Positions 243-26,574 are shown, counted from the stretch's first letter. The stretch is DNA of 33,188 nt from an uncultured Hyphomicrobiales bacterium (GCA_903892675.1 CAITJJ010000082.1:1-33188); one strand, 5' to 3'. The notes: a model not told the origin generated them from the letters alone. Translations and numbers: made by a program.

Positions 243-914
243 ATGGAAGGCAGTCAGCCTAAATCTCAGGTCAAGCCGCGCGCCGCCAGCCTGACGCGCG
301 ATCCCGAGCGTACGCGCGCGGCGATCCTGCGCGCCGCGACCGCCGAGATCACGGCCAAGGGGCTGACCGGCGCACGGGTCGACGCCATCGCGGCGCGGGC
401 CGGCGTCAACAAGCGCATGCTCTATCACTATTTCGGCGACAAGCAGGGCCTCTATCTCGCCGTGCTCGAACACACTTACGCGGCGATCCGCGCCGCGGAA
501 ATCGGCCTCAACCTGACCGAACTCGATGCCGCCGCCGGCATGCGCAGACTGGTGCTGTTCACCTGGCAATATTTCATCGACCACCCGGAATTCTTAAGTC
601 TGCTGGCGACAGAGAATATGAACCGGGCGGCTTATCTCAAGACCTCGAAACAAATCCGCACGCTGCATGCGCCGCTGGTCGGCATGATCGAGGTGCTGCT
701 CAAGCGCGGCGCCGCAGAGAAGGTGTTCCGCGCCGGCATAGACCCGATCGAGCTTTACATCAGCATCGCCGCGCTCGGCTTCTTCTACATGTCGAACCGG
801 CACACACTCTCGACCATCTTCGGCGAGAATCTCAGCGCGCCGGAACGGCTGGCGCGGCGCGGCGAACACATCGTTGAAGTCATCCTCGCTTTTCTGAAAC
901 CCACTAAATCCTGA
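243..914 (+). CDS. TetR/AcrR family transcriptional regulator
   Basis: N-terminal HTH 'RAAILRAATAEITAKGLTGARVDAIAARAGVNKRMLYHYFGDKQGLYLAVLE' is a classic TetR domain. Confidence 0.93.
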   Translation: MEGSQPKSQVKPRAASLTRDPERTRAAILRAATAEITAKGLTGARVDAIAARAGVNKRMLYHYFGDKQGLYLAVLEHTYAAIRAAEIGLNLTELDAAAGMRRLVLFTWQYFIDHPEFLSLLATENMNRAAYLKTSKQIRTLHAPLVGMIEVLLKRGAAEKVFRAGIDPIELYISIAALGFFYMSNRHTLSTIFGENLSAPERLARRGEHIVEVILAFLKPTKS

Positions 915-962
915 TCTTTTGCCCTCCGACGGGTCTTGACGGACCCCGGTCCGTCTCTGCAT

Positions 963-980
963 AGTAACCGTATAGTTACT
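963..980. promoter_or_regulatory. Operator-like inverted repeat AGTAAC-CGTATA-GTTACT, candidate TetR operator
   Basis: Perfect 6-bp arms in the tetR/oxidoreductase intergenic region, downstream of a TTGACG -35-like box (936-941). Closely matches a second repeat at 6077-6092. Confidence 0.55.
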
Positions 981-1030
981 TAACCGCGCCTGTAAGAGCG
1001 CCCGCTTAAAGCAATTTGGAGGACGGCTTC

Positions 1031-2185
1031 GTGGCAACCCGCAGATTAGGCATCGTGATGTACGGCATCACCGGACGCATGGGGCTCAACCAGCATCTGG
1101 TGCGCTCGATTGTGGCGATCCGCCAGCAGGGCGGCGTCCTGCTGCCGAATGGCGACCGCGTGATGCCAGATCCGATCCTGGTCGGCCGCAATGCCGAGAA
1201 GATCGCGGCGCTGGCCAGGCAGTACGGCATCGAACGCCACACCACCGACCTGACCGCGGCGCTTAACGATCCGAAGGACGAGGTATTCTTCGACGCGGCG
1301 ACGACGCAAATGCGCGCCGATTTGATTATGCAGGCGATGCAAGCCGGCAAGCACATCTATTGTGAGAAGCCGGTCGCCGACACGCTCGACAAGGCGATCG
1401 CGGTCGCCAAATTCGCCAAGGCCAAGGGCCTGAAGAACGGCGTCGTGCAGGACAAGCTGTTCCTGCCCGGTCTGCGCAAGATCAAGATGCTGCGCGAGGC
1501 CGGCTTCTTCGGCCGCATGCTCTCGGTGCGCGGCGAATTCGGCTACTGGGTGTTTGAAGGCGACTGGGGCCAGCCGGCGCAGCGGCCGAGCTGGAATTAC
1601 AAGAAGGCCGAGGGCGGTGGCATCATTCTCGATATGCTGTGCCATTGGCGCTACGTGCTCGACAATCTGTTCGGCAAGGTCGAGGCGGTAAGCTGCTTAG
1701 GGGCCACGCATATCCCCAAGCGCGTCGACGAAAACGGCAAGACCTATGAGGCCGACGCCGACGACGCGGCTTACGCGACGTTTCAGCTGGAAGGTGGCGT
1801 GATTGCCCACATGAACTCGTCATGGGCGGTGCGGGTGCAGCGCGACGACCTGGTGACGTTCCAGGTCGACGGCACGCACGGTTCCGCGGTCGCGGGCCTG
1901 ACCAAATGCGTGACCCAGGCGCGGGTCAACACGCCGCGTCCCGTCTGGAATCCCGATGTGCCGCAGACGATGAACTTCGCGTCGCAGTGGGAGGAAGTGC
2001 CGGACAATGTCACCTACGAGAACGGCTTCAAGATTCAGTGGGAAGATTTCATTCGCCATGTCGTCGCCGACACGCCGTGGCATCACGGCCTGATCGAAGG
2101 CGTCAAGGGCGTGCAGCTCGCCGAACTGGGTTTGAAGAGTTGGGCCGAGCGCCGCTGGCTCGACGTGCCGGAAATCAAGATTTAG
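1031..2185 (+). CDS. Gfo/Idh/MocA family oxidoreductase
   Basis: Rossmann-type N-terminus 'RLGIVMYGITGRMG' and 'GKHIYCEKPVADTLDKAIAVAKFAK' motif. GTG start at 1031 is preceded by GGAGGA (the ORF track starts at TTG 1016). Confidence 0.87.
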   Translation: MATRRLGIVMYGITGRMGLNQHLVRSIVAIRQQGGVLLPNGDRVMPDPILVGRNAEKIAALARQYGIERHTTDLTAALNDPKDEVFFDAATTQMRADLIMQAMQAGKHIYCEKPVADTLDKAIAVAKFAKAKGLKNGVVQDKLFLPGLRKIKMLREAGFFGRMLSVRGEFGYWVFEGDWGQPAQRPSWNYKKAEGGGIILDMLCHWRYVLDNLFGKVEAVSCLGATHIPKRVDENGKTYEADADDAAYATFQLEGGVIAHMNSSWAVRVQRDDLVTFQVDGTHGSAVAGLTKCVTQARVNTPRPVWNPDVPQTMNFASQWEEVPDNVTYENGFKIQWEDFIRHVVADTPWHHGLIEGVKGVQLAELGLKSWAERRWLDVPEIKI

Positions 2186-2196
2186 GGAGCAGGATA

Positions 2197-3363
2197 ATGG
2201 CGACGCTTTCGCTTCCTCAGGCCGGCGGCAAATTCTCGGCCTACACGACGGGCGAGCCGATCCAGTTCCCGTCTAGAGCCGAAACCGCGCGCTTCAACCG
2301 CGTCGCTTACGCGGCCGCGCATGTCGTTGCCGATCCGCTGGCCGATAACGATCCCTGGCTTGATACCAATATCGACTGGGACAAGACGATCGCCTTCCGG
2401 CATTACCTGTGGGATCTGGGCTTTGGCGTCGCCGAGGCGATGGACACGGCGCAGCGCGGCGGCGGCCTTGATTGGAGCGCCGCCAAGCAACTCATCAAGC
2501 ATGCGCTGGAAGCGGCCAAGTCCCGGCCAGATGCGAAAATATGCTGCGGCGTCGGCACCGATCATCTCGCGGTCAGCGATGACGTCACTATCGACGACAT
2601 CATCCGAGCTTATGAAGAGCAGATCGAAGCCGTCGAAAGCATGGGCGGCCAGCTTATCGTCATGGCGTCGCGGGCGCTGGCGCGCGTGGCCAAGTCGCCG
2701 GCCGATTACGAGCGCGTTTATGGCCGTATTCTCCGCCAGGTGAAGGAGCCGGTGATCATTCATTGGCTCGGCGAAATGTTCGATCCGGCGCTGGCCGGCT
2801 ATTGGGGTTCGATGGACCATTCAGTTGCGATGGAAACGTGCCTCGACATGATGCGGGATAACGCCGCCAAGATCGACGGCGTAAAGATTTCGCTTTTGTC
2901 GAAGAACAAGGAAATTGCCATGCGCCGCCGTCTGCCGCAGGGCGTACGCATGTATACCGGCGACGACTTCAACTACGCCGAATTGATCGCCGGCGACGAG
3001 CAGGGCTATTCCGACGCGCTGCTCGGCATTTTCGACGCCATTGCGCCGGCAGCATCCGCCGGCCTGGCGAAATTGTCGAAGGGCGACCTGCAGGGCTTCC
3101 ACGGCATCATGGAGCCGACGGTGCCGCTGTCGCGCCATATCTTCAAGGCGCCGACGCGCTTCTACAAGACCGGCGTCGTGTTCCTTGCGTGGCTCAATGG
3201 CCTGCAGGACCACTTCATCATGGTCGGCGGGCAGGAGAGTGCGCGTTCGATCCTGCATCTCACGGAGTTATTCCGCCTCGCCGACAGAGCGCGCGTGCTG
3301 CACGATCCGGATCTGGCGGCATCGCGCATGAGCAAGCTGCTTGGCGTGCACGGGCTGGCGTAA
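2197..3363 (+). CDS. DUF993 family protein (dihydrodipicolinate synthase-like TIM barrel)
   Basis: ATG at 2197 gives 'MATLSLPQAGGKFSAYTTGEPIQFPSRAETARFNRVAYAAAHVVADPLADNDPWLDTNIDWDKTIAFRHYLWDLGFGVAEAMDTAQRG'. 'DGVKIS...YTGDDF' resembles the DHDPS Schiff-base lysine and GDD regions. Confidence 0.82.
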   Translation: MATLSLPQAGGKFSAYTTGEPIQFPSRAETARFNRVAYAAAHVVADPLADNDPWLDTNIDWDKTIAFRHYLWDLGFGVAEAMDTAQRGGGLDWSAAKQLIKHALEAAKSRPDAKICCGVGTDHLAVSDDVTIDDIIRAYEEQIEAVESMGGQLIVMASRALARVAKSPADYERVYGRILRQVKEPVIIHWLGEMFDPALAGYWGSMDHSVAMETCLDMMRDNAAKIDGVKISLLSKNKEIAMRRRLPQGVRMYTGDDFNYAELIAGDEQGYSDALLGIFDAIAPAASAGLAKLSKGDLQGFHGIMEPTVPLSRHIFKAPTRFYKTGVVFLAWLNGLQDHFIMVGGQESARSILHLTELFRLADRARVLHDPDLAASRMSKLLGVHGLA

Positions 3364-3365
3364 CG

Positions 3366-4196
3366 CTAGAGTTCGCCGGTCTGCGCGTTGAAGTGCTTGC
3401 GAATGGTCTGCGACAATTCGACAAAGGCCGGGTCCGCCAGCATGTCGAGCGTGCGCGGTTTGGCCAGCGGCACCTCGTAGACAGCGGCGATGGCGCCGGG
3501 CCGGTCGGTCATCACCAGAATGCGGTCGGCCAGGAACACCGCTTCCGGAATCGAATGGGTGATCAGTAGCACGGTCTTGCGCGTCTCGCGCTGGATACGC
3601 TGCAACTCGACATTCATGCGCTCGCGCGTCATGGCGTCGAGTGCGCCGAACGGCTCGTCCATCAGCACGATCTTCGGGTCGTGCACCAGGGCGCGGCAGA
3701 TCGAGGCACGCTGCTGCATGCCGCCGGACAATTGCCAGGGATATTTGTTCTCGAAACCTTCGAGTCCGACCATCTTCAACAGCGCATGGGCGCGCGCCTC
3801 GTATTTCTCGCGCGGCAGCCTTTTCACCTCGACCGGCATCATCACGTTTTTGAACACGCTGCGCCACGGCAGCAGCATCGAGGTCTGGAACACGATGCCG
3901 ACGTCGCCATGCGGCTTGGTGATGACGCGGCCTTCGATTTTGATCTCGCCGGAGGAAGGCGGCAGCAGGCCGGCGATCATCTTCAGCAACGTCGTCTTGC
4001 CGCAGCCGGACGGGCCGACCACGACGACGAATTCGCCGTCGGCGATCTCGAAGTCGATCGGCCGCAACGACGGTACATCGCCGTCGCGCGTCCGATAGGT
4101 TTTCGAAACGGCCTTGCCTTCGATAATCACGGACCGCGCCGCCTCGGAGGAGGCGGCGCGGTTGTCTCGCTTCAGTGGGGTGACGTTATTTGTCAC
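3366..4196 (-). CDS. NitT/TauT-type ABC transporter ATP-binding protein
   Basis: Walker A GPSGCGKTTLL, signature LSGGMQQR, Walker B IVLMDEPFGALDAMTRE; GTG start. Confidence 0.93.
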   Translation of the reverse strand: MTNNVTPLKRDNRAASSEAARSVIIEGKAVSKTYRTRDGDVPSLRPIDFEIADGEFVVVVGPSGCGKTTLLKMIAGLLPPSSGEIKIEGRVITKPHGDVGIVFQTSMLLPWRSVFKNVMMPVEVKRLPREKYEARAHALLKMVGLEGFENKYPWQLSGGMQQRASICRALVHDPKIVLMDEPFGALDAMTRERMNVELQRIQRETRKTVLLITHSIPEAVFLADRILVMTDRPGAIAAVYEVPLAKPRTLDMLADPAFVELSQTIRKHFNAQTGEL

Positions 4197-4220
4197 TGAC
4201 CTGTCTCTTTTATTGAGTGC

Positions 4221-5204
4221 TTACAAGCCCGCTTTGGGCAGGTAGTCGTTGGTGTAATAGGTCTTCACGTCGGCCTTGGCCTTGGCGTCGAGGCCACCAT
4301 ATTCGACCATGACGTCGACCGTCTCGGCGACATTCTTGTCGCTGACGCGCAACGGTTGCTTCGAGGCGCCGGCCGGATCCTTGTAGAGCGGAATGGTCAG
4401 TTCAAAGCCCTGCGTCAGGGTTTCGATCTTGCCGCCCTTCGGGTTGGCGTTGAGGATCGCCTGCGCCGCGTCCTTCGGATGCTTGGAGGCTTCCTCGAGC
4501 GACTTGACGCTGGCCGCCATGAAGCGGCGCACCAGGTCTTCGTTCGCTTTGAGGTACTCGGTGTTGGTGATGACCCCCGACGAGATCAGGTTGATGCCGT
4601 AATCCGAAAACTTTATCGGATAGACGTCCTTGCCGGTGGCGTCCTTGATCTTCATCGACTGGTCCATGACATAGCCGAGCAGGAGATCGGCCTGACCGTT
4701 GATCACCGCGTTGAGCTTGGTCACTGCGTCGCCCGAGACGGTCTTGAAGTCGGTTTCCTTCAGGCCGGTCTTCTTCAGGAACAAGGGCCAGATCTGCGAC
4801 ATCGAATCGCCCGGCGTAGTGGCGACCGTCTTGCCCTTGATGTCTTCGGCCTTCTTGATGTTCTTGTCGGCAAAACCCATCGCCGACATCGGGTTGGTCT
4901 GCAGCGCGACGCCGACGGCGACGACCGGCGCGCCCTTGACGGCGGCCCGCATCATCGTCGGCACGTCGACATAGCCGAACTCCACGGTCTTGGCGGCGAC
5001 CACATTGGTCACCGTGGCCGAACCGCGGCCTTCCTGGATTTCCAAATCGATGCCGTTGGCGGCATAGAAGCCTTTTTCCTTGCCGTAATAGAACGGCGCA
5101 TGCTCGCCATAGACGTACCAGTTGAGCATCAACGTGACCTTGTCGGCGGCCAGCGCGGGTCCGGCGATAAGGATCGCTCCGAGCGTAACAATCAATCGCA
5201 ACAT
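4221..5204 (-). CDS. ABC transporter substrate-binding protein (NMT1/THI5-like, NitT/TauT family)
   Basis: Signal peptide, then 'DKVTLMLNWYVYGEHAPFYYGKEKGFYAANGIDLEIQEGRGSATVTNVVAAKTVEFGY'. Confidence 0.92.
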   Translation of the reverse strand: MLRLIVTLGAILIAGPALAADKVTLMLNWYVYGEHAPFYYGKEKGFYAANGIDLEIQEGRGSATVTNVVAAKTVEFGYVDVPTMMRAAVKGAPVVAVGVALQTNPMSAMGFADKNIKKAEDIKGKTVATTPGDSMSQIWPLFLKKTGLKETDFKTVSGDAVTKLNAVINGQADLLLGYVMDQSMKIKDATGKDVYPIKFSDYGINLISSGVITNTEYLKANEDLVRRFMAASVKSLEEASKHPKDAAQAILNANPKGGKIETLTQGFELTIPLYKDPAGASKQPLRVSDKNVAETVDVMVEYGGLDAKAKADVKTYYTNDYLPKAGL

Positions 5205-5228
5205 GGTTCTCTCCCTGTGGTTTTATAG

Positions 5229-6032
5229 TTAGGCGGCGACGATAAAATCCTGGCGCTGGCTGGCGTGCCACGGAATGGCGAAGCGTTCGATCAAGTCGAG
5301 GATCCAGAACAGGATCACGCCGATCAGCGACAGCACGACGAGCGCGGCGAACATGGTCGGCAGTTCGAAATTGCCGATTGAGCGTTGCAGCACGAAGCCG
5401 AGGCCCGAGTTCGAGCCGACGAATTCGCCGACCACGGCGCCGACGACGGCGAGCGTGATCGACACCTTCAGGCCGGAGAAAATCGCCGGCATTGCGTGCG
5501 GCAATCTTACCATGTGGAATATCTGCAGGCGATTGGCTTCCATGGCGCGCGCAAGATCGAGCATGTCCGGCTCGACCGACTTGAAGCCCTGCACAGCCGA
5601 CACCACGACCGGGAAGAAGCCGAGGAGGAAAGCTGCCAATACTTTGGGCACCATGCCGAAGCCGAACCAGACCACGAACAAAGGCGCGATGGCGATCTTC
5701 GGAATCGACTGCGAAAACACCAGCAGCGGATAGACGTAGCTTTCGACCGTGCGTGAGCCGACGATCAGCATGGCCATCGGGATGCCGAACAGGGCCGAAA
5801 GAATAAAGCCCTGCACCGTGGCGGCGGTGGTCGGCACCGCCTGCGCCAGCAGCATCGGCCAGTCGGCCCACAAAGTCGCGATGACGTCGGCGGGTTTGGG
5901 CACCTGATAGGGCGGGATGCGGAACAGGCGGATCGCCAGGTCCCAGAAAACGACCAATAACACAAGAAATATCAACGGCTTGATCCAGTCAGCCTGGAGC
6001 AGCTTTTGCCATCCTGGTTTAGGGTCGGCCAT
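5229..6032 (-). CDS. ABC transporter permease (NitT/TauT family)
   Basis: Multi-spanning hydrophobic protein with the permease motif 'GFFPVVVSAVQGFKSVEPDMLDLARAMEANRLQIFHMVRLPHAMPAIFSGLKVS'. ATG at 6032 is preceded by GGGAGGA; the track's 6074 start overlaps the operator-like repeat. Confidence 0.9.
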   Translation of the reverse strand: MADPKPGWQKLLQADWIKPLIFLVLLVVFWDLAIRLFRIPPYQVPKPADVIATLWADWPMLLAQAVPTTAATVQGFILSALFGIPMAMLIVGSRTVESYVYPLLVFSQSIPKIAIAPLFVVWFGFGMVPKVLAAFLLGFFPVVVSAVQGFKSVEPDMLDLARAMEANRLQIFHMVRLPHAMPAIFSGLKVSITLAVVGAVVGEFVGSNSGLGFVLQRSIGNFELPTMFAALVVLSLIGVILFWILDLIERFAIPWHASQRQDFIVAA

Positions 6033-6076
6033 CGCATCCTCCCGGCCCGGCGTCTTGCAGTGCGCCAGTGCCACAT

Positions 6077-6092
6077 GTAACCATTTGGTTAT
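6077..6092. promoter_or_regulatory. Operator-like inverted repeat GTAACC-ATTT-GGTTAT, second candidate TetR site
   Basis: Same 16-nt architecture as 964-979 (GTAACCGTATAGTTAC versus GTAACCATTTGGTTAT), in the divergent ABC/enolase intergenic region. Confidence 0.55.
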
Positions 6093-6109
6093 TTAAGGAG
6101 GTGTGCGCG

Positions 6110-6187
6110 GTGGGGTCAAGTCAACAAGACGCGGCGAAAGCACGCCTTTCGGCCTATGCCGGGTCGCCCCGGCGGGGCCACGCATGA
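6110..6187 (+). CDS. Possible 25-aa leader peptide/uORF, ATGA-overlapping with the enolase-superfamily gene
   Basis: GTG at 6110 is preceded by AAGGAGG (6094-6100, 9-nt spacing). Translation (M)GSSQQDAAKARLSAYAGSPRRGHA*; TGA 6185-6187 overlaps ATG 6184-6186. No homology evidence available. Confidence 0.3.
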   Translation: MGSSQQDAAKARLSAYAGSPRRGHA

Positions 6188-7614
6188 TCAATTCCGCGGC
6201 ACAACTGCGCCTGATCGGCGCCGAACTCTACGAACGGCCGGTGAAACTGCGGCTGCCGTTCCGCTTTGGCGTCGTCACGTTACGCGAGGCGCCGCAGCTG
6301 TTCGTGCGCGCGCGTGTGCGCATGGCCGATGGCCGCGACGGCGAGGGCGTGTCGGCTGAACTGCTGGTGCCGAAATGGTTCGACAAGTCGCCGGAGCTTT
6401 CCAACGACGACAATTTCAATCAGTTGCGGCGCGCGGTGGCGATCGCGCTGCGGCACATGACCGGCGTTGGCGAACAGACTGCCTTCGGCATCACCGCCGC
6501 CGCCAATGCAGGCCATCGCGCCGAATGTTCGGCGAATGGCCTCAACGGGCTGGTGGCATCGTTCGGCATGGCTTTGATCGAGCGAGCGATCATCGACGCG
6601 CTGGGCCGTCTCGATGGCGTGCCTGCCGCCGCGCTGGTGCGCGACAACCGCCTCGGCATTGACGCCCGATTGACCCCCGATCTCGCCGGCTTCGATCTCA
6701 ATAGATTCCTCAGCGGCATAAAGCCTGCCGGGACAATTTTCGCACGCCACACCGTCGGTCTTGTTGACGCCATCACCCGCGCCGATACGCAAGGCAAGCG
6801 CCTCGACGACGGATTGCCGGAAAGTCTGGAAGAAGTCATCGCCGCCTATGGCCATGTCTATTTCAAGCTCAAGGTCGGCGGCAATGCCGACGCCGATATC
6901 GAGCGCTTGGCGCAGATCGCCGCCGTGCTCGATCGCGCCAGTGCGCCTTACAAGGCGACGCTCGACGGCAACGAGCAATATGAGAACGTCGATGCAGTGC
7001 TGGAGTTATGGCGGCGCATTGGCGAGGACAAAAGACTGGCGCGATTGAAGGCTTCACTCTTGCTGATCGAGCAGCCGATCACGCGCGCGCAGGCTTTGAG
7101 CAAGCCGGTGCATGCTCTGGCGCGGGATATCGCTGTCGAGATCGACGAATCGGATTCCGATTACGACGTGTTTCCGCGCGCCCGCGCGCTCGGCTATCAC
7201 GGCATTTCGTCGAAGTCCTGCAAGGGCTTTTACCGGGCGCTGCTCAACAGCGCCCGCGTCGCGCAGTACAATGAGCAGCACGGCGGCGGCTTCGTCATGT
7301 CGGCGGAAGATCTCACCACCCAGGGCGGCATTGCCGTGCAGCAGGATTTGTTGCTGGCCTCGTTGGTCGGCGCGATCCATGTCGAGCGCAACGGTCATCA
7401 CTATGTCGACGGCATGGCCGGTGCGCCGCCGGCCGAGCAGGAAGCCTGGCTCGCCGCGCATAACGATGTCTATCGCCGCGCCGGCAACGGCCGCGCCCGG
7501 CTCGATATCCGCGACGGCATGGTGTCGCTGCGAACGATCGCGCAGGCGAATGGGCTCGGCAGCGCCGTTTTGCCCGACTGGATGTCAATGAACCCGAGCC
7601 CGAACGCGGAGTGA
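6184..7614 (+). CDS. Enolase-superfamily enzyme (mandelate racemase/muconate lactonizing enzyme group)
   Basis: 'VYFKLKVGGNADADIERL' (KxK), 'ATLDGNEQY', 'LLLIEQPI', 'IAVEIDESDSDYDVF' and 'GISSKSCKG' follow the order of MR/MLE catalytic and metal-ligand motifs. ATG at 6184. Confidence 0.82.
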   Translation: MINSAAQLRLIGAELYERPVKLRLPFRFGVVTLREAPQLFVRARVRMADGRDGEGVSAELLVPKWFDKSPELSNDDNFNQLRRAVAIALRHMTGVGEQTAFGITAAANAGHRAECSANGLNGLVASFGMALIERAIIDALGRLDGVPAAALVRDNRLGIDARLTPDLAGFDLNRFLSGIKPAGTIFARHTVGLVDAITRADTQGKRLDDGLPESLEEVIAAYGHVYFKLKVGGNADADIERLAQIAAVLDRASAPYKATLDGNEQYENVDAVLELWRRIGEDKRLARLKASLLLIEQPITRAQALSKPVHALARDIAVEIDESDSDYDVFPRARALGYHGISSKSCKGFYRALLNSARVAQYNEQHGGGFVMSAEDLTTQGGIAVQQDLLLASLVGAIHVERNGHHYVDGMAGAPPAEQEAWLAAHNDVYRRAGNGRARLDIRDGMVSLRTIAQANGLGSAVLPDWMSMNPSPNAE

Positions 7615-7616
7615 CG

Positions 7617-8474
7617 ATGCGAACCGAAGGCCTTTCGATCAACCTGGCCACCGTGCGCCAGCAGTGGAATCTCGTCGAGGCGGTCGAGGCCTGTGCGCGG
7701 CACGGGATCACTTGTATCGATCCGTGGCGCGATCAGGTGGCGGCGGTCGGACTCGATACTGCGGTTAAAGTCATCAAGGACAACGGCATGCGTGTCTCCG
7801 GCTATTGCCGCGGCGGCATGTTTCCAGCGGCCGATGCGGCGGGGCGTCAGGCGGCGATCGACGACAACAAGCGCGCCGTCGACGAGGCGGCGGCGCTCGG
7901 CGCCGAATGTCTGGTGCTGGTGGTCGGCGGCCTGCCGAAAGGTTCGCGCGACATCGGCGCGGCACGGCAAATGGTGCTCGACGGCATGGCAGCGCTTCTG
8001 CCGCATGCGCGCGCCAGCAAGATGCCGCTGGCGATCGAGCCGCTGCATCCGATGTATGCCGGCGACCGCGCCTGCGTGAATACGCTCAAGCAGGCGCTCG
8101 ATATGGCCGGGCACTTAGGTGATGATGTCGGTGTCGCCATCGATGCCTACCATGTCTGGTGGGACCCGGACCTGGAAGCGCAGATCGCGCGGGCGGGACG
8201 CGAAAACCGCATCCTCGGCTACCACATCTGCGACTGGCTGGTGCCGACCAAGGACCTGTTGCTCGACCGAGGCATGCCGGGCGATGGGGTCATCGACCTG
8301 CCACGCATCCGCGGCTGGATCGAAAAGGCCGGCTACACGGGCCACACCGAAATCGAGATTTTCTCGGCCAAGGACTGGTGGACGAGGCCAGGCGACGAGG
8401 TGCTGAAGACCTGCATCGCGCGCTATAACGACACCTTCGCAGCCCAGGCTGGTAAAGCCGCCGAAACGCGCTAA
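7617..8474 (+). CDS. Sugar phosphate isomerase/epimerase family protein (xylose isomerase-like TIM barrel)
   Basis: 'RTEGLSINLATVRQQWNLVEAVEACARHGITCIDPWRDQV', 'AIEPLHPMYAGDRACVNTLKQALDMA', 'VGVAIDAYHVWWDPDLEAQIARAG', 'GYTGHTEIEIFS'. Could also start at GTG 7611, overlapping the upstream stop. Confidence 0.87.
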   Translation: MRTEGLSINLATVRQQWNLVEAVEACARHGITCIDPWRDQVAAVGLDTAVKVIKDNGMRVSGYCRGGMFPAADAAGRQAAIDDNKRAVDEAAALGAECLVLVVGGLPKGSRDIGAARQMVLDGMAALLPHARASKMPLAIEPLHPMYAGDRACVNTLKQALDMAGHLGDDVGVAIDAYHVWWDPDLEAQIARAGRENRILGYHICDWLVPTKDLLLDRGMPGDGVIDLPRIRGWIEKAGYTGHTEIEIFSAKDWWTRPGDEVLKTCIARYNDTFAAQAGKAAETR

Positions 8475-8488
8475 AAGGGCCTTTAGCG

Positions 8489-8565
8489 GCGCTCGTAGCT
8501 CAGCTGGATAGAGCATCGGACTTCGAATCCGAGGGTCGGGAGTTCGAATCTCTCCGAGCGCGCCA
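8489..8565 (+). tRNA. tRNA-Arg (anticodon TCG)
   Basis: GCGCTCG...CGAGCGC acceptor stem; anticodon loop CTTCGAA flanked by TCGGA/TCCGA; T-loop GTTCGAATC; encoded CCA. Confidence 0.96.
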
Positions 8566-8610
8566 TTCCACCGGTATGGCCGGGCATTAACGCTGCGGCA
8601 TGGAATAGCC

Positions 8611-8630
8611 GCGATTTGGCAGCAAATCGC
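8611..8630. terminator. Possible terminator hairpin downstream of tRNA-Arg
   Basis: GCGATTT-GGCAGC-AAATCGC, followed by CCTTTCC; no long T-tract. Confidence 0.25.
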
Positions 8631-8811
8631 CCTTTCCGGCGCAATATTGGCCCTGACGATTGGCGCTTTTGCTTGTTCTGGTCTAAAGCATCCCCACATC
8701 ACCCAATTCGTCGTTTATCGCGGTGGCGCCGATGCGCTGCCGTGCCCGGCGCTTCCATTCGGTTCGTTTTACCCGTTCAAAAGCGGCCGCCAGCCCAAGG
8801 TCTGACATCTC

Positions 8812-22253: not shown

Positions 22254-23780
22254 ATGGCCGATTACGACCTCGCAATCATCGGCGGCGGCATCAACGGCAC
22301 CGGGCTGGCGCGCGACGCCGCCGGCCGCGGCCTGCGCGTGCTGCTGGTCGAAACCAACGATCTGGCGTCCGGCACCTCGTCGGCTTCCTCGAAGCTGATC
22401 CATGGCGGCCTGCGCTATCTCGAGCACGGGGCGTTCCGGCTGGTGCGCGAAGCGCTTGGCGAACGCGAGGTGCTGCTGCGCATGGCGCCGCATCTGATCC
22501 GCCCCATGCGCTTTGTACTGCCGCCGGTGCCGGGCATGCGCGCGCCGCTCCTCTTGCGCTTCGGCCTTCTAGTTTACGACTGGCTCGGCGCGCGCAAGCT
22601 GCTGCCGCCGTCGCGCACCATCGATCTGACGCATAACGTGGTCGGCCAGCCGCTCAAACGGTCGTTCCGCTACGCCTTCGAATATTCCGACTGCTGGGTC
22701 GACGACAGCCGGCTGGTCGTTCTTAACGCGGTCGATGCCGCAGAGCGCGGCGCCACCATCCGCACCCGCACCCGCTGCGTCCGCGTGGAGCGGCGCGACG
22801 AATGGGAGCTGGTGCTCAATAGCCGCGGCAAACGCGACACCGCGACCGCGCGCGTTCTGGTGAATGCCGCGGGCCCGTGGATCGGCGAAGTGGCGGATAC
22901 GATCATCCGGCGGCCCCTGCCGGCGCCGGTACGCCTGATCAAGGGCAGCCACATCGTCGTGCGCCGCCGGTTCGATCATAGCGACGGCTATATCCTTCAG
23001 GCCAAAGGCGGGCGCGTCGTCTTCGCGCTGCCGTTCGCGGAAGACTTTACGCTGATCGGAACGACGGACGAGAATTTCGTCGGCGATCTGAAATCGCCGG
23101 CGCCGAATGCGGCCGAGATCATGTATCTCTGCGACGTGGCGAACCAGTATTTCCGCGACAGAATTACGCCCGACGAACTGGTCTGGTCTTATGCCGGCGT
23201 GCGGGCGCTGTACGACGACGGCGCCGGCAAACCGGAAGACGTGACGCGCGACTATGTGCTGACGCTCGACGAGCAGCGGCATCTGGCGCCGCTGCTCACC
23301 GTTTATGGCGGCAAGATCACCACCCACCGGCGGCTGGCCGAAGCCGCCATGAGCAAGATGCGCCATTTCTTTTTGGCGAAGCCGGCCTGGACTGCGAAAT
23401 CGTCGTTGCCGGGCGGCGAATTTCCACCAGATGGGTTTGCCGAAGTCGTAACCGCGATGCGGGCGCGCTGGCCATTTCTCACCGAGGCGACGGCGCAGCG
23501 TCTGGCGCGCGCCTATGGCCTGCGCTGCGAGCAGTTTCTCGGCGAGGCGAAAAGCCTGGCCGATCTTGGGCCCGTGCTGGCCGGCGATCTCACCGGCGCG
23601 GAAGTGCGCTATCTGGTCGCCCGTGAATGGGCGCAGACCGCCGACGACGTGCTGTGGCGACGCAGCAAGCTCGGCCTGTCGGCCAGCGTCGAGGAGCGCA
23701 CCGCGATCGCGCAGTTCATCGCCTCATTGCACGGCCCAGCCGCCGTCCCGAATGCGCCGGACGGGAAGGCCGCAACGTGA
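22254..23780 (+). CDS. glpD: Glycerol-3-phosphate dehydrogenase (FAD-dependent)
   Basis: 'YDLAIIGGGINGTGLARDAAGRGLRVLLVETNDLASGTSSASSKLIHGGLRYLEHGAFRLVREALGEREVLLRMAPHLI'. Confidence 0.96.
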   Translation: MADYDLAIIGGGINGTGLARDAAGRGLRVLLVETNDLASGTSSASSKLIHGGLRYLEHGAFRLVREALGEREVLLRMAPHLIRPMRFVLPPVPGMRAPLLLRFGLLVYDWLGARKLLPPSRTIDLTHNVVGQPLKRSFRYAFEYSDCWVDDSRLVVLNAVDAAERGATIRTRTRCVRVERRDEWELVLNSRGKRDTATARVLVNAAGPWIGEVADTIIRRPLPAPVRLIKGSHIVVRRRFDHSDGYILQAKGGRVVFALPFAEDFTLIGTTDENFVGDLKSPAPNAAEIMYLCDVANQYFRDRITPDELVWSYAGVRALYDDGAGKPEDVTRDYVLTLDEQRHLAPLLTVYGGKITTHRRLAEAAMSKMRHFFLAKPAWTAKSSLPGGEFPPDGFAEVVTAMRARWPFLTEATAQRLARAYGLRCEQFLGEAKSLADLGPVLAGDLTGAEVRYLVAREWAQTADDVLWRRSKLGLSASVEERTAIAQFIASLHGPAAVPNAPDGKAAT

Positions 23781-23871
23781 ATGGCGATCGACAGGGTTGA
23801 TGAAACCTTAATGCCGGCGCGGAAATTGATTCGTCCGGCTTTATCGCAACGCCATAACTTTGTGCTTGAAT

Positions 23872-23887
23872 GGTAATGCGGATTACC
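23872..23887. promoter_or_regulatory. Operator-like inverted repeat GGTAAT-GCGG-ATTACC upstream of the first response regulator
   Basis: Perfect 6-bp arms, 24 nt upstream of ATG 23912. Confidence 0.3.
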
Positions 23888-23911
23888 GGTTTTGACCTGA
23901 ACGGATTAGCT

Positions 23912-24430
23912 ATGCCGATTGACACAAGATCGCTCGAAGCCCGGTTCGCCACCGCGAAGATTCTCATCGTCGACGATGAGCATTACATGCGGAAGGTCGT
24001 GCGCACTTTGCTTATGAGCATCGGCGTTCGCGACATTCACGAGGCTCCGGACGGCCCGGCCGGGCTGGAGATGGTCCGCAACGTCATGCCGGACATGGTC
24101 ATCCTCGATTGGGAAATGCCCGGGCTCGACGGCGCCGGCTTCGTGCGCATGGTGCGTTCGCCGCAGACTTTCCCCCTGCCCGATATTCCGATCATCATGC
24201 TCACCGGTCATGGCGAACGCTCGCGCGTGATCCAGGCGATCGAGCTTGGCGTCAACGAGTTCTTGCTCAAGCCGGTGTCGTCCAAGGCGCTGCGCGACCG
24301 CATTATCGCGGTGATGACCAAGCCGCGGCCGCTGGTGAGATCCGGCGATTACTATGGCCCGGCGCCGCGCAAGATGGCCAATATCCACGAAGACAACGAC
24401 AATGCCGGCCATCTGGTGATGCTCACCTGA
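23912..24430 (+). CDS. Single-domain response regulator (CheY-like receiver)
   Basis: 'AKILIVDDEHYMRKVVRTLLMSIGVRD...PDMVILDWEMPGLDGAGFVRMVRS...IPIIMLTGHGERSRVIQAIELGVNEFLLKPVS'; no output domain. Start 23912 inferred (23870 possible). Confidence 0.9.
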   Translation: MPIDTRSLEARFATAKILIVDDEHYMRKVVRTLLMSIGVRDIHEAPDGPAGLEMVRNVMPDMVILDWEMPGLDGAGFVRMVRSPQTFPLPDIPIIMLTGHGERSRVIQAIELGVNEFLLKPVSSKALRDRIIAVMTKPRPLVRSGDYYGPAPRKMANIHEDNDNAGHLVMLT

Positions 24431-24463
24431 CGCGGCCGGCGGCCCTGCTTGCGGCCAGCCTCC

Positions 24464-24490
24464 GCGCAAAACCGGTTTCCCCGATTGCGC
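24464..24490. repeat. Inverted-repeat segment GCGCAA-AACCGGTTT...TTGCGC in the regulator/glpK gap, possibly a degenerate palindromic repeat
   Basis: GCGCAA (24464-24469) / TTGCGC (24485-24490) enclosing the palindrome AAACCGGTTT. Confidence 0.35.
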
Positions 24491-24534
24491 TTCGTGCGCT
24501 AGCGTCGGCCTGACAGCCAAGGCCGGGGACCGCT

Positions 24535-26031
24535 TTGCCGAACCATCTCATCGCCATCGATCAGGGTACCACCTCGACGCGCGCCATTGTGTTCGATGCG
24601 GCCTTGAAGCCCTGCGCCAGCGCGCAGCGCGAGCTGCGGCAGTATTATCCGGCGCCGGGCTGGGTCGAGCACGACCCGGAGGAAATCTGGCAGGCGACAG
24701 TCGCCACCGTGCGCGAAGCGATGGCGTCGGCCGGCGTGAGCGCCAAGGATATCGCCGGCATCGGCATCACCAACCAGCGTGAGACCAGCGTGATCTGGGA
24801 TCGTGCGAGCGGTGCGCCGATTCACAAGGCCATTGTCTGGCAGGACCGCCGCACCGCCGACGCTTGCGATGTCTTGCGCGCCGGCGGCCATGAGCCCGAG
24901 ATCGTCAAGCGGTCCGGGCTGCTGCTCGATCCTTATTTTTCCGCCAGCAAGATCGCCTGGCTGCTCGACAATGTCGAAGGCGCGCGCGTCAGGGCCGGCG
25001 CCGGCGAACTCGTCTTCGGCACCATCGACAGTTTTCTGCTGTGGCGGCTGACCGGCGGCAAGGTGCACGCCACCGACGCCACCAATGCCGCGCGTACCAT
25101 GCTGCTCGATATCGGCAAGGGCGTCTGGGATGAAGGATTATGCGAAATATTCGGCGTACCGCGCGCGATGCTGCCGCGGGTGCGCGACTGCGCCGGCGAA
25201 TTCGGCGTCACCGAGCCGGAGCTGTTCGTCGGACCGATCCGCATCCTCGGCATCGCCGGCGACCAGCAGGCCGCGACCATCGGCCAGGGCTGCTTTGCGC
25301 CCGGCATGATGAAGTCGACTTACGGCACCGGCTGCTTCGTGCTGCTCAACACCGGCACTGAGCGCATCGCCTCGCAGAGCCGGCTGCTCACCACTATCGC
25401 CTATCAACTCGATGGCAAACGCACTTATGCGCTGGAGGGTTCGATCTTCATCGCCGGCGCCGCCGTGCAATGGCTGCGCGATGGCTTGAAGATCATCGCC
25501 AGGTCGTCCGATGTCGGCGCACTGGCCGAACGCGCCGATCCGGCCGAGGCGGTCTATCTGGTGCCGGCCTTTGTCGGTCTGGGCGCGCCCTATTGGGACC
25601 CGCAAGCGCGCGCCGCGATTTTCGGGCTGACGCGCAATTCCGGCGCAGCCGAAATCGCCCGCGCCACGCTCGATTCCGTCGGCTATCAGACCCGCGATTT
25701 GCTGGAGGCCATGCATGCCGACTGGCCGGCCTCGGGCTCCGCCCGAACCATCCTGCGCGTCGATGGCGGCATGACCGCCAGCGATCCCTGCATGCAGTTC
25801 CTGGCCGACATTCTGGCGAGCCCGGTCGACCGGCCGGTGGTCATGGAAACGACCGCGCTCGGCGCCGCCTATCTCGCCGGGCTTGCCGCCGGCATCTGCC
25901 CCGGCCTCGACGGCTTTGCCGCGCAGTGGCGGCTGGACCGCCGTTTCGAGCCGTCGATGGCGCCGGCGCAGCGGGAAGCGAAATATGCCGGCTGGAAGGA
26001 CGCGGTTCGGCGCACATTAACGGCAAGGTGA
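24535..26031 (+). CDS. glpK: Glycerol kinase
   Basis: '[59 protein letters not shown]', '[32 protein letters not shown]', '[17 protein letters not shown]'. TTG start. Confidence 0.97.
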
Positions 26032-26070
26032 CTTTTGACCGCCATACTAACATACCGGTCGGGTCGCGCG

Positions 26071-26574
26071 ATGAACATCAATCCCAAACATGCCGAATAT
26101 CTGGTCCAGCAGCTCAACGTGCTGCTGGTTGACGATAATGCCTTCACGCGCAAACTGGTGCGCGGCCTGCTCAACACCATCGGCGTGAAATCGATCACCG
26201 AGGCCGGCGACGGTATTGCCGCGCTGGAGATGATCCGCGCCGCGGCGCCCGACGTGATCATTCTCGACTGGGAAATGCCGCTGCTGAACGGTCCGGAATT
26301 GGTGCGCATCGTGCGCTCGCCCGGCGTATTTCCGGTGCCGGACGTGCCCATTATCATGCTGTCCGCGCATGGCGAGCGCTGGCGCATCGTCGAATCGGTG
26401 AAGCTCGGGGTGAACGAGTTCCTGTGCAAGCCGGTTTCGGCCAAGTCGCTGCTCGACCGCCTGATCTCGATTCTGCTCAAGCCGCGCGCGACGGTCCAGT
26501 TCGAAGGCTATTACGGCCCGCTGCCGCGCGAGCCGGTATCGAAGGAACGACGCGGCGCAATTCCCGCTGCCTGA
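26071..26574 (+). CDS. Single-domain response regulator, paralogous to 23912-24430
   Basis: 'NVLLVDDNAFTRKLVRGLLNTIGVKSITEAGDGIAALEMIRAAAPDVIILDWEMPLLNGPELVRIVRSPGVFPVPDVPIIMLSAHGERWRIVESVKLGVNEFLCKPVS'. Shares a C-terminal YYGP motif with the first copy. Confidence 0.9.
   Translation: MNINPKHAEYLVQQLNVLLVDDNAFTRKLVRGLLNTIGVKSITEAGDGIAALEMIRAAAPDVIILDWEMPLLNGPELVRIVRSPGVFPVPDVPIIMLSAHGERWRIVESVKLGVNEFLCKPVSAKSLLDRLISILLKPRATVQFEGYYGPLPREPVSKERRGAIPAA

Follow-up and report, generated by a model that had tools for sequence, protein, structure and literature searches.

A DUF993-centered gene island with a conserved enzyme core, a shared palindromic operator, and exchangeable transporters in Alphaproteobacteria

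The window analyzed here, a stretch of 33,188 nucleotides, is one entire contig of a metagenome-assembled genome (MAG), G000 (3.6 Mb, 404 contigs); among named organisms, it is closest to Pseudolabrys, other Xanthobacteraceae, and Rhodopseudomonas MAGs. Near its left end, a TetR-family regulator gene is followed by genes for a Gfo/Idh oxidoreductase, a DUF993 protein, a NitT/TauT-type ABC transporter, an enolase-superfamily enzyme, and a TIM-barrel protein, which raises the question of whether these genes form a single catabolic unit and, if so, what kind of compound it degrades. The initial annotation had proposed such a unit, working by oxidation, dehydration, and aldol cleavage and marked by the NitT/TauT transporter; the idea of one unit held up in our analysis, while the dehydration step and the transporter signature did not. 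We consider it probable (about 0.62) that a repressor controls the island and that its genes serve the catabolism of a small organic acid, with the reactions and their order proposed below. G000 is a soil bacterium with a compact, jointly regulated uptake and breakdown set, the predicted substrate being a small organic acid.

Gene content and conserved core of the island

All eight named genes were found where they had initially been placed, and three gene starts were revised (cf. Table 1). For the Gfo/Idh gene, GTG at 1031 is the most likely start, judging from the ribosome-binding site and the N-terminus MATRRLGIV of the relative L162, whereas the DUF993 and enolase-family ORFs, listed from 1822 and 6103, respectively, are over-extended. 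For the TIM-barrel gene, an alternative start at 7617 is possible. The tRNA-Arg gene lies 15 bp past the last island gene and is a possible insertion border; an antisense ORF (8115-8702) from the mechanical ORF list runs through it. Elsewhere in the window (22254-26574), glpD-like and glpK-like genes, recognized by reading, are interleaved with response-regulator receiver ORFs (23870-24430 and 26071-26574).

Table 1. Features of the island and its right-hand border, in window coordinates
Feature	Position	Strand	Remarks
TetR-family regulator	243-914	+	PF17938 (3e-42), PF00440 (7e-14)
Sigma-70-like promoter, TTGACG-18-CATAGT	936-965	+	before dehydrogenase gene; a 9/12 consensus match only; also readable in L161
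Operator site 1, GTAACCGTATAGTTAC	964-979	+	before dehydrogenase gene; kept in L161, with one change in L162
Gfo/Idh/MocA-family oxidoreductase (core)	1031-2185	+	PF22725, PF01408, PF02894; PDB 3oqb, E 1e-185
DUF993 protein, DHDPS/NAL-fold, putative Schiff-base lyase (core)	2197-3363	+	PF06187 (6e-187); PDB 4dnh, 68% identity
ABC transporter ATPase, NitT/TauT type	3366-4196	-	PF00005
Periplasmic substrate-binding protein (SBP), NMT1/THI5-like	4221-5204	-	PF09084 (9e-47)
ABC transporter permease, NitT/TauT type	5229-6032	-	PF00528 (3e-32)
Operator site 2, GTAACCATTTGGTTAT	6077-6092	+	divergent permease/enolase gap; identical in L161
Enolase-superfamily enzyme, MLE-like active site	6184-7614	+	PF13378 (5e-7)
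Xylose-isomerase-like TIM barrel (AP_endonuc_2), isomerase/epimerase (core)	7611-8474	+	PF01261 (8e-39); PDB 3ju2/3qc0 (SMc04130), E 6e-125
tRNA-Arg (TCG)	8489-8565	+	ARAGORN; right-hand border, outside the island

The comparison of DUF993 gene neighborhoods, proposed in the initial annotation as a check, showed that the Gfo/Idh and TIM-barrel neighbors are conserved together with DUF993 across Alphaproteobacteria. This core, usually accompanied by TetR, recurred in about 120 locus neighborhoods and in 80 loci with organism names, a conservation far beyond chance. DUF993 turned up in 117 of the 398 genomes that represent the order, in 25 of 289 at class level, and in 19 of 249 at phylum level, the three samples sharing related genomes; a family found in about 30% of the order's sampled genomes, and represented by a crystal structure, thus stands without a function that we could find. 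A literature search on DUF993/PF06187, the SMc04130-SMc04140 and SMa14xx genes, and the related PDB entries retrieved nothing functional; one transcriptome listing came up (PMC12542648).

The same gene set, with other uptake systems plugged in, is found in many plant- and soil-associated bacteria. The modules around the core comprised NitT/TauT ABC transporters of two unrelated families, the tripartite carboxylate transporter TctCBA, and a CUT1 sugar-type ABC transporter with extra Gfo/Idh genes, as well as a second TIM barrel, a second DHDPS-like protein (DHDPS2), an NAD-epimerase, a GNAT protein, and a PhyH-type dioxygenase. A further set of loci, termed class B, in which DUF993 is 53-61% identical, carried genes for a CoA-transferase, an enoyl-CoA hydratase, an acyl-CoA dehydrogenase, and GMC and aldehyde dehydrogenases. 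In the close relatives L163 and L164, transporters of the branched-chain amino-acid and TAXI-TRAP types lie beside the core, along with DHDPS and DUF1445-like genes assigned by reading. A link to 5-oxoproline or D-glutamate, read from flanking genes in L141, L163, L164, and L200, was not conserved and is kept as a lead.

A shared operator and its presumed repressor

A palindrome, GTAACY-N4-RGTTAY, is common to the intergenic stretch upstream of the Gfo/Idh gene and the divergent gap between the permease and enolase-family genes, and in relatives it precedes the same genes as in the window. The pattern GTAACYNTWTRGTTAY matched twice in the whole 3.6-Mb genome, both times within the island, with no match for the reversed control and none in shuffled versions of the window. 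Site 1 overlaps the -10 element of the sole promoter-like match upstream of the dehydrogenase operon, as expected for a repressor site. Furthermore, GTAAC-N6-GTTAC occurred 104 times in 4.28 Mb of fetched loci, always between genes, compared with a mean of 2.9 and a maximum of 36 matches (at most five intergenic) for 59 permuted half-sites made of the same letters and searched in the same loci. The sites preceded the Gfo/Idh gene (49), the CUT1 SBP (25), TetR (23), TctC (12), and the NitT SBP (11), and also DHDPS2, second TIM-barrel, PhyH, and DUF993 genes; the fetched loci include some near-duplicates, and neither the match nor the target counts are independent. In 35 genomes picked for carrying DUF993, 37 of the 43 perfect sites lay within about 20 kb of a DUF993 or enolase-family gene; the other six are in G202, G183, G145, G358, and G121. 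Bradyrhizobium has a conserved, diverged form of the operator, TTATCCAACGGGTTAA, with three mismatches, which counts against the proposed regulation.

The arrangement, a palindromic operator over the predicted promoter of linked genes, is that of a TetR-controlled operon. Since the TetR gene is linked to these sites and site 1 overlaps the promoter, its product is the predicted operator binder and the presumed repressor of the island. The RutR model gave this protein 57 bits, under its cut-off of 368, which rules it out as RutR. The conserved neighbors and the shared operator together bear out the view of one catabolic unit. The operator also defines a regulon, and the promoter at site 1 offers a direct handle for an inducer screen.

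In class-B loci, the operator stood before genes for an acyl-CoA dehydrogenase, an aldo/keto reductase, and a CoA-transferase, as in L244 (S. meliloti pSymA) and L249 (Sagittula), which look like a second, CoA-linked pathway under seemingly the same type of regulator; these two are among the operator-bearing loci whose covered stretch contains no TetR gene, a point against TetR as the binder. Two perfect sites 101 bp apart were also found far from any DUF993 locus (G202:C1:807489-807605), a possible extra member of the regulon.

Folds and active-site residues of the DUF993 and enolase-family enzymes

The sole solved relative of the DUF993 protein is 4dnh (SMc04132), and the family has had a crystal structure since 2012. 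The model of the protein itself was of medium confidence (pLDDT 75). In a Foldseek search, all matches listed after 4dnh were of the DHDPS/NAL type (E down to 7e-10, TMt about 0.75), and the DUF993 profile matched DHDPS-family proteins of G000 and related genomes with a probability of 88% (E 3e-6). Lys230, invariant in 32 diverse DUF993 sequences, aligned with the Schiff-base lysine of DHDPS, and GDD at 255-257 aligned with the GDD of DHDPS (254-257 on TGDD). Sequence and model thus place DUF993 among the DHDPS-type (beta/alpha)8 barrels. Since many members already carry the NCBI label "dihydrodipicolinate synthase family protein," the fold family itself is not new. The DUF993 alignments lacked the pyruvate-carboxylate motif TTG(E), with AEAMDTAQRG in its place, as well as the catalytic Tyr of YNxP, replaced by H189-W-L-G. 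The aldolase slot initially assigned to DUF993 therefore remains plausible in its broader form, since the fold and the invariant lysine at the Schiff-base position suggest a lyase or aldolase-like enzyme. A pyruvate-type aldolase is less plausible: without TTG and Tyr, the protein is not classed as a pyruvate-dependent DHDPS-family enzyme, the textbook cleavage of a 2-keto-3-deoxy acid to pyruvate is not indicated, and its chemistry may be quite different. In a Streptomyces plasmid (L248, 10004-11191), a DUF993 gene is immediately followed by one for a type I polyketide synthase, which suggests that the family is also used in a biosynthetic cluster.

The enolase-family protein gave no match when searched alone against the PDB, unlike the family profile, which found relatives among the muconate-lactonizing enzymes (MLE) and dipeptide epimerases. 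Its confident model (pLDDT 91) retrieved the MR/MLE fold in Foldseek (E 1e-15, 13-20% identity). Invariant in 27 sequences were K228, K230, D261, N263, E296, D321/E322, K344, and E375, which correspond, with strands assigned by the model, to the KxK on strand 2, the three acidic metal ligands, and the Lys on strand 6 of the MLE subgroup; a His-Asp dyad of the MR subgroup was not conserved in the strand-6 region, where Lys344 stands instead. By residues and model, the protein belongs to a deep, uncharacterized subgroup with two clades and an MLE-like active site. The initial assignment as an MR/MLE-type dehydratase or racemase thus holds as regards family and intact active site and lacks support as regards a classical sugar-acid dehydratase; a racemase, epimerase, or elimination reaction fits the MLE-type residues better.

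The enolase family occurred in 52 of the 398 genomes of the order, 51 of which also carry DUF993 (Fisher p 2e-30, shared ancestry ignored). In about a dozen genomes, its gene is found at a distance from DUF993, in most cases next to TctCBA, a second TIM barrel, TetR, NAD-epimerase, and DHDPS2, which argues for a link to DUF993 of function rather than of position alone. The one enolase-bearing genome without DUF993 (G245) has the gene next to DHDPS2 and TctCBA. Many otherwise complete clusters lack the enolase-family gene, which is thus peripheral to the core.

These observations bear directly on the classical non-phosphorylative sugar-acid pathway, in which a sugar would be oxidized to its acid, the enolase-family enzyme would dehydrate it, and DUF993 would cleave the resulting 2-keto-3-deoxy acid to pyruvate and an aldehyde. 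Although Gfo/Idh, MR/MLE, and DHDPS-fold enzymes do occur together here, and many class-B loci contain an aldehyde dehydrogenase, the frequent absence of the enolase-family gene and its MLE-type residues tell against the dehydration step, as the missing TTG and Tyr of DUF993 do against the cleavage; moreover, the island has no aldehyde or KGSA dehydrogenase and fills the dehydratase and lyase slots with candidates only. We therefore regard this pathway as unlikely.

Transporter exchange and the proposed pathway

The island encodes a NitT/TauT importer, i.e. an NMT1-type SBP with its own permease and ATPase. The curated taurine, sulfonate, and nitrate models all stayed below cut-off for these proteins (for the SBP, SsuA_fam scored 68 bits against 163.5), and identities as a sulfonate, taurine, nitrate, or pyrimidine importer were rejected, no curated family being reached. 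In the place that the inverted ABC genes occupy in the window and in L161, TctC-TctB-TctA is found in L160 and L162, whose DUF993 proteins are 93% and 84% identical, respectively. In the enolase tree, the window grouped with L161 and L162; the three lie within the TctCBA/CUT1 clade (100/99) and are separate from every Bradyrhizobium-type enzyme (100/100), whereas in the SBP and permease trees the window fell into the Bradyrhizobium-type ABC clade. These trees indicate that an ABC module from the latter clade replaced a TctCBA module, and we take the NitT/TauT transporter to be a recent swap. Since close relatives use TTT, sugar-type ABC, or other transporters instead, the NitT/TauT system is not the essential signature for which it had been taken.

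Replacement of the transporter module beside an unchanged enzyme set implies that the substrate stayed the same or nearly so. Carboxylates are the cargo of TTT transporters, and the known enolase-superfamily enzymes act on carbons adjoining carboxylates; from these two analogies, we infer an organic acid. That entire transporter modules were exchanged again and again around a fixed core narrows the class of substrate and is a clear natural case of transporter swapping. Against an acid stand the CUT1 sugar-type ABC transporters of some lineages. Together with the extra Gfo/Idh genes in Rhizobium/Sinorhizobium-type loci, they favor degradation of a sugar, polyol, or inositol-like cyclitol, in which the Gfo/Idh enzyme would form a keto-sugar, the TIM barrel would act as isomerase or dehydratase, and DUF993 as retro-aldolase, in the manner of IolG-IolE/I-IolJ. 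LacI and GMC dehydrogenases in class-B loci also fit, as do the nearest models, IolG and levoglucosan dehydrogenase for Gfo/Idh and IolO for the TIM barrel, all below cut-off. Nevertheless, the TctCBA transporters and the enolase-superfamily enzyme of the closest relatives point to an acid, which leaves this route improbable. Finally, although the ABC genes lie on the opposite strand, inserted between the DUF993 and enolase-family genes, and solved SBP relatives include THI5 and ThiY, chance placement of an unrelated importer (e.g. of sulfonate, nitrate, or a thiamine-precursor pyrimidine) is very unlikely and was rejected, because the ABC promoter has the shared operator and because Bradyrhizobium, Microvirga, Azospirillum, and Chelatococcus have the same ABC set collinear with the cluster; independent recruitment of a second NitT family, seen in the trees, and the low scores of the named models also speak against it.

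The proposed repressor-controlled unit would work on its small organic acid as follows. In the absence of substrate, TetR bound to the palindrome would cover the dehydrogenase-DUF993 promoter and the divergent ABC and enolase-TIM promoters, keeping all three off. With the substrate or an intermediate bound to the repressor, the acid would enter through the ABC transporter, and the enolase-family enzyme would take a proton next to the carboxylate, by racemization/epimerization or elimination, to feed the core. There, the Gfo/Idh enzyme would use NAD(P) to turn a hydroxyl into a ketone, the TIM-barrel enzyme would shift or invert a keto/hydroxy pair, and DUF993 would form a Schiff base through Lys230 and then cleave or dehydrate the keto compound. 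A broader proposal, which we put at slightly below even odds, is that DUF993 is a Schiff-base lyase for a new, non-pyruvate type of substrate and forms, with the dehydrogenase and the TIM barrel, the core of an undescribed pathway with plug-in uptake and front-end enzymes, one TetR operator extending from class-A loci with acid-type transporters to class-B loci with CoA-transferase and acyl-CoA dehydrogenase.

Several known systems resemble parts of the island. Bacterial inositol catabolism (IolG, IolE/IolI/IolO, aldolase) follows the same logic of dehydrogenase, TIM-barrel isomerase, and aldolase-like enzyme; however, the island has no IolB/C/D/J, and the NCBIfam Iol models all score far below cut-off. 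With the DHDPS/N-acetylneuraminate lyase superfamily of class I lyases, including L-2-keto-3-deoxyarabonate dehydratase, DUF993 shares the fold and the lysine and GDD in register, yet it is only about 14% identical, lacks TTG, has His for the catalytic Tyr, and is about 80 residues longer. The enolase-family enzyme has the KxK, the Asp/Glu/Asp-Glu metal ligands, the opposite-face Lys, and the fold of the muconate-lactonizing subgroup (muconate cycloisomerase, dipeptide epimerase, and N-succinylamino acid racemase), although at 13-20% identity, with about 100 additional residues and invariant motifs of its own (RHTVG, SSKSCKG, SAEDLTTQ, and ERNGHH). A further counterpart is S. meliloti SMc04130-SMc04133 (3ju2/3qc0, 4dnh), with Bradyrhizobium 3oqb: the structures are structural-genomics entries without known function, and the S. 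meliloti system has a sugar-type ABC transporter instead of NitT/TauT, but the core is orthologous (4dnh, 68%; TIM barrel, E 1e-125; oxidoreductase, E 1e-185), and related Ensifer loci share both the operator and the gene set.
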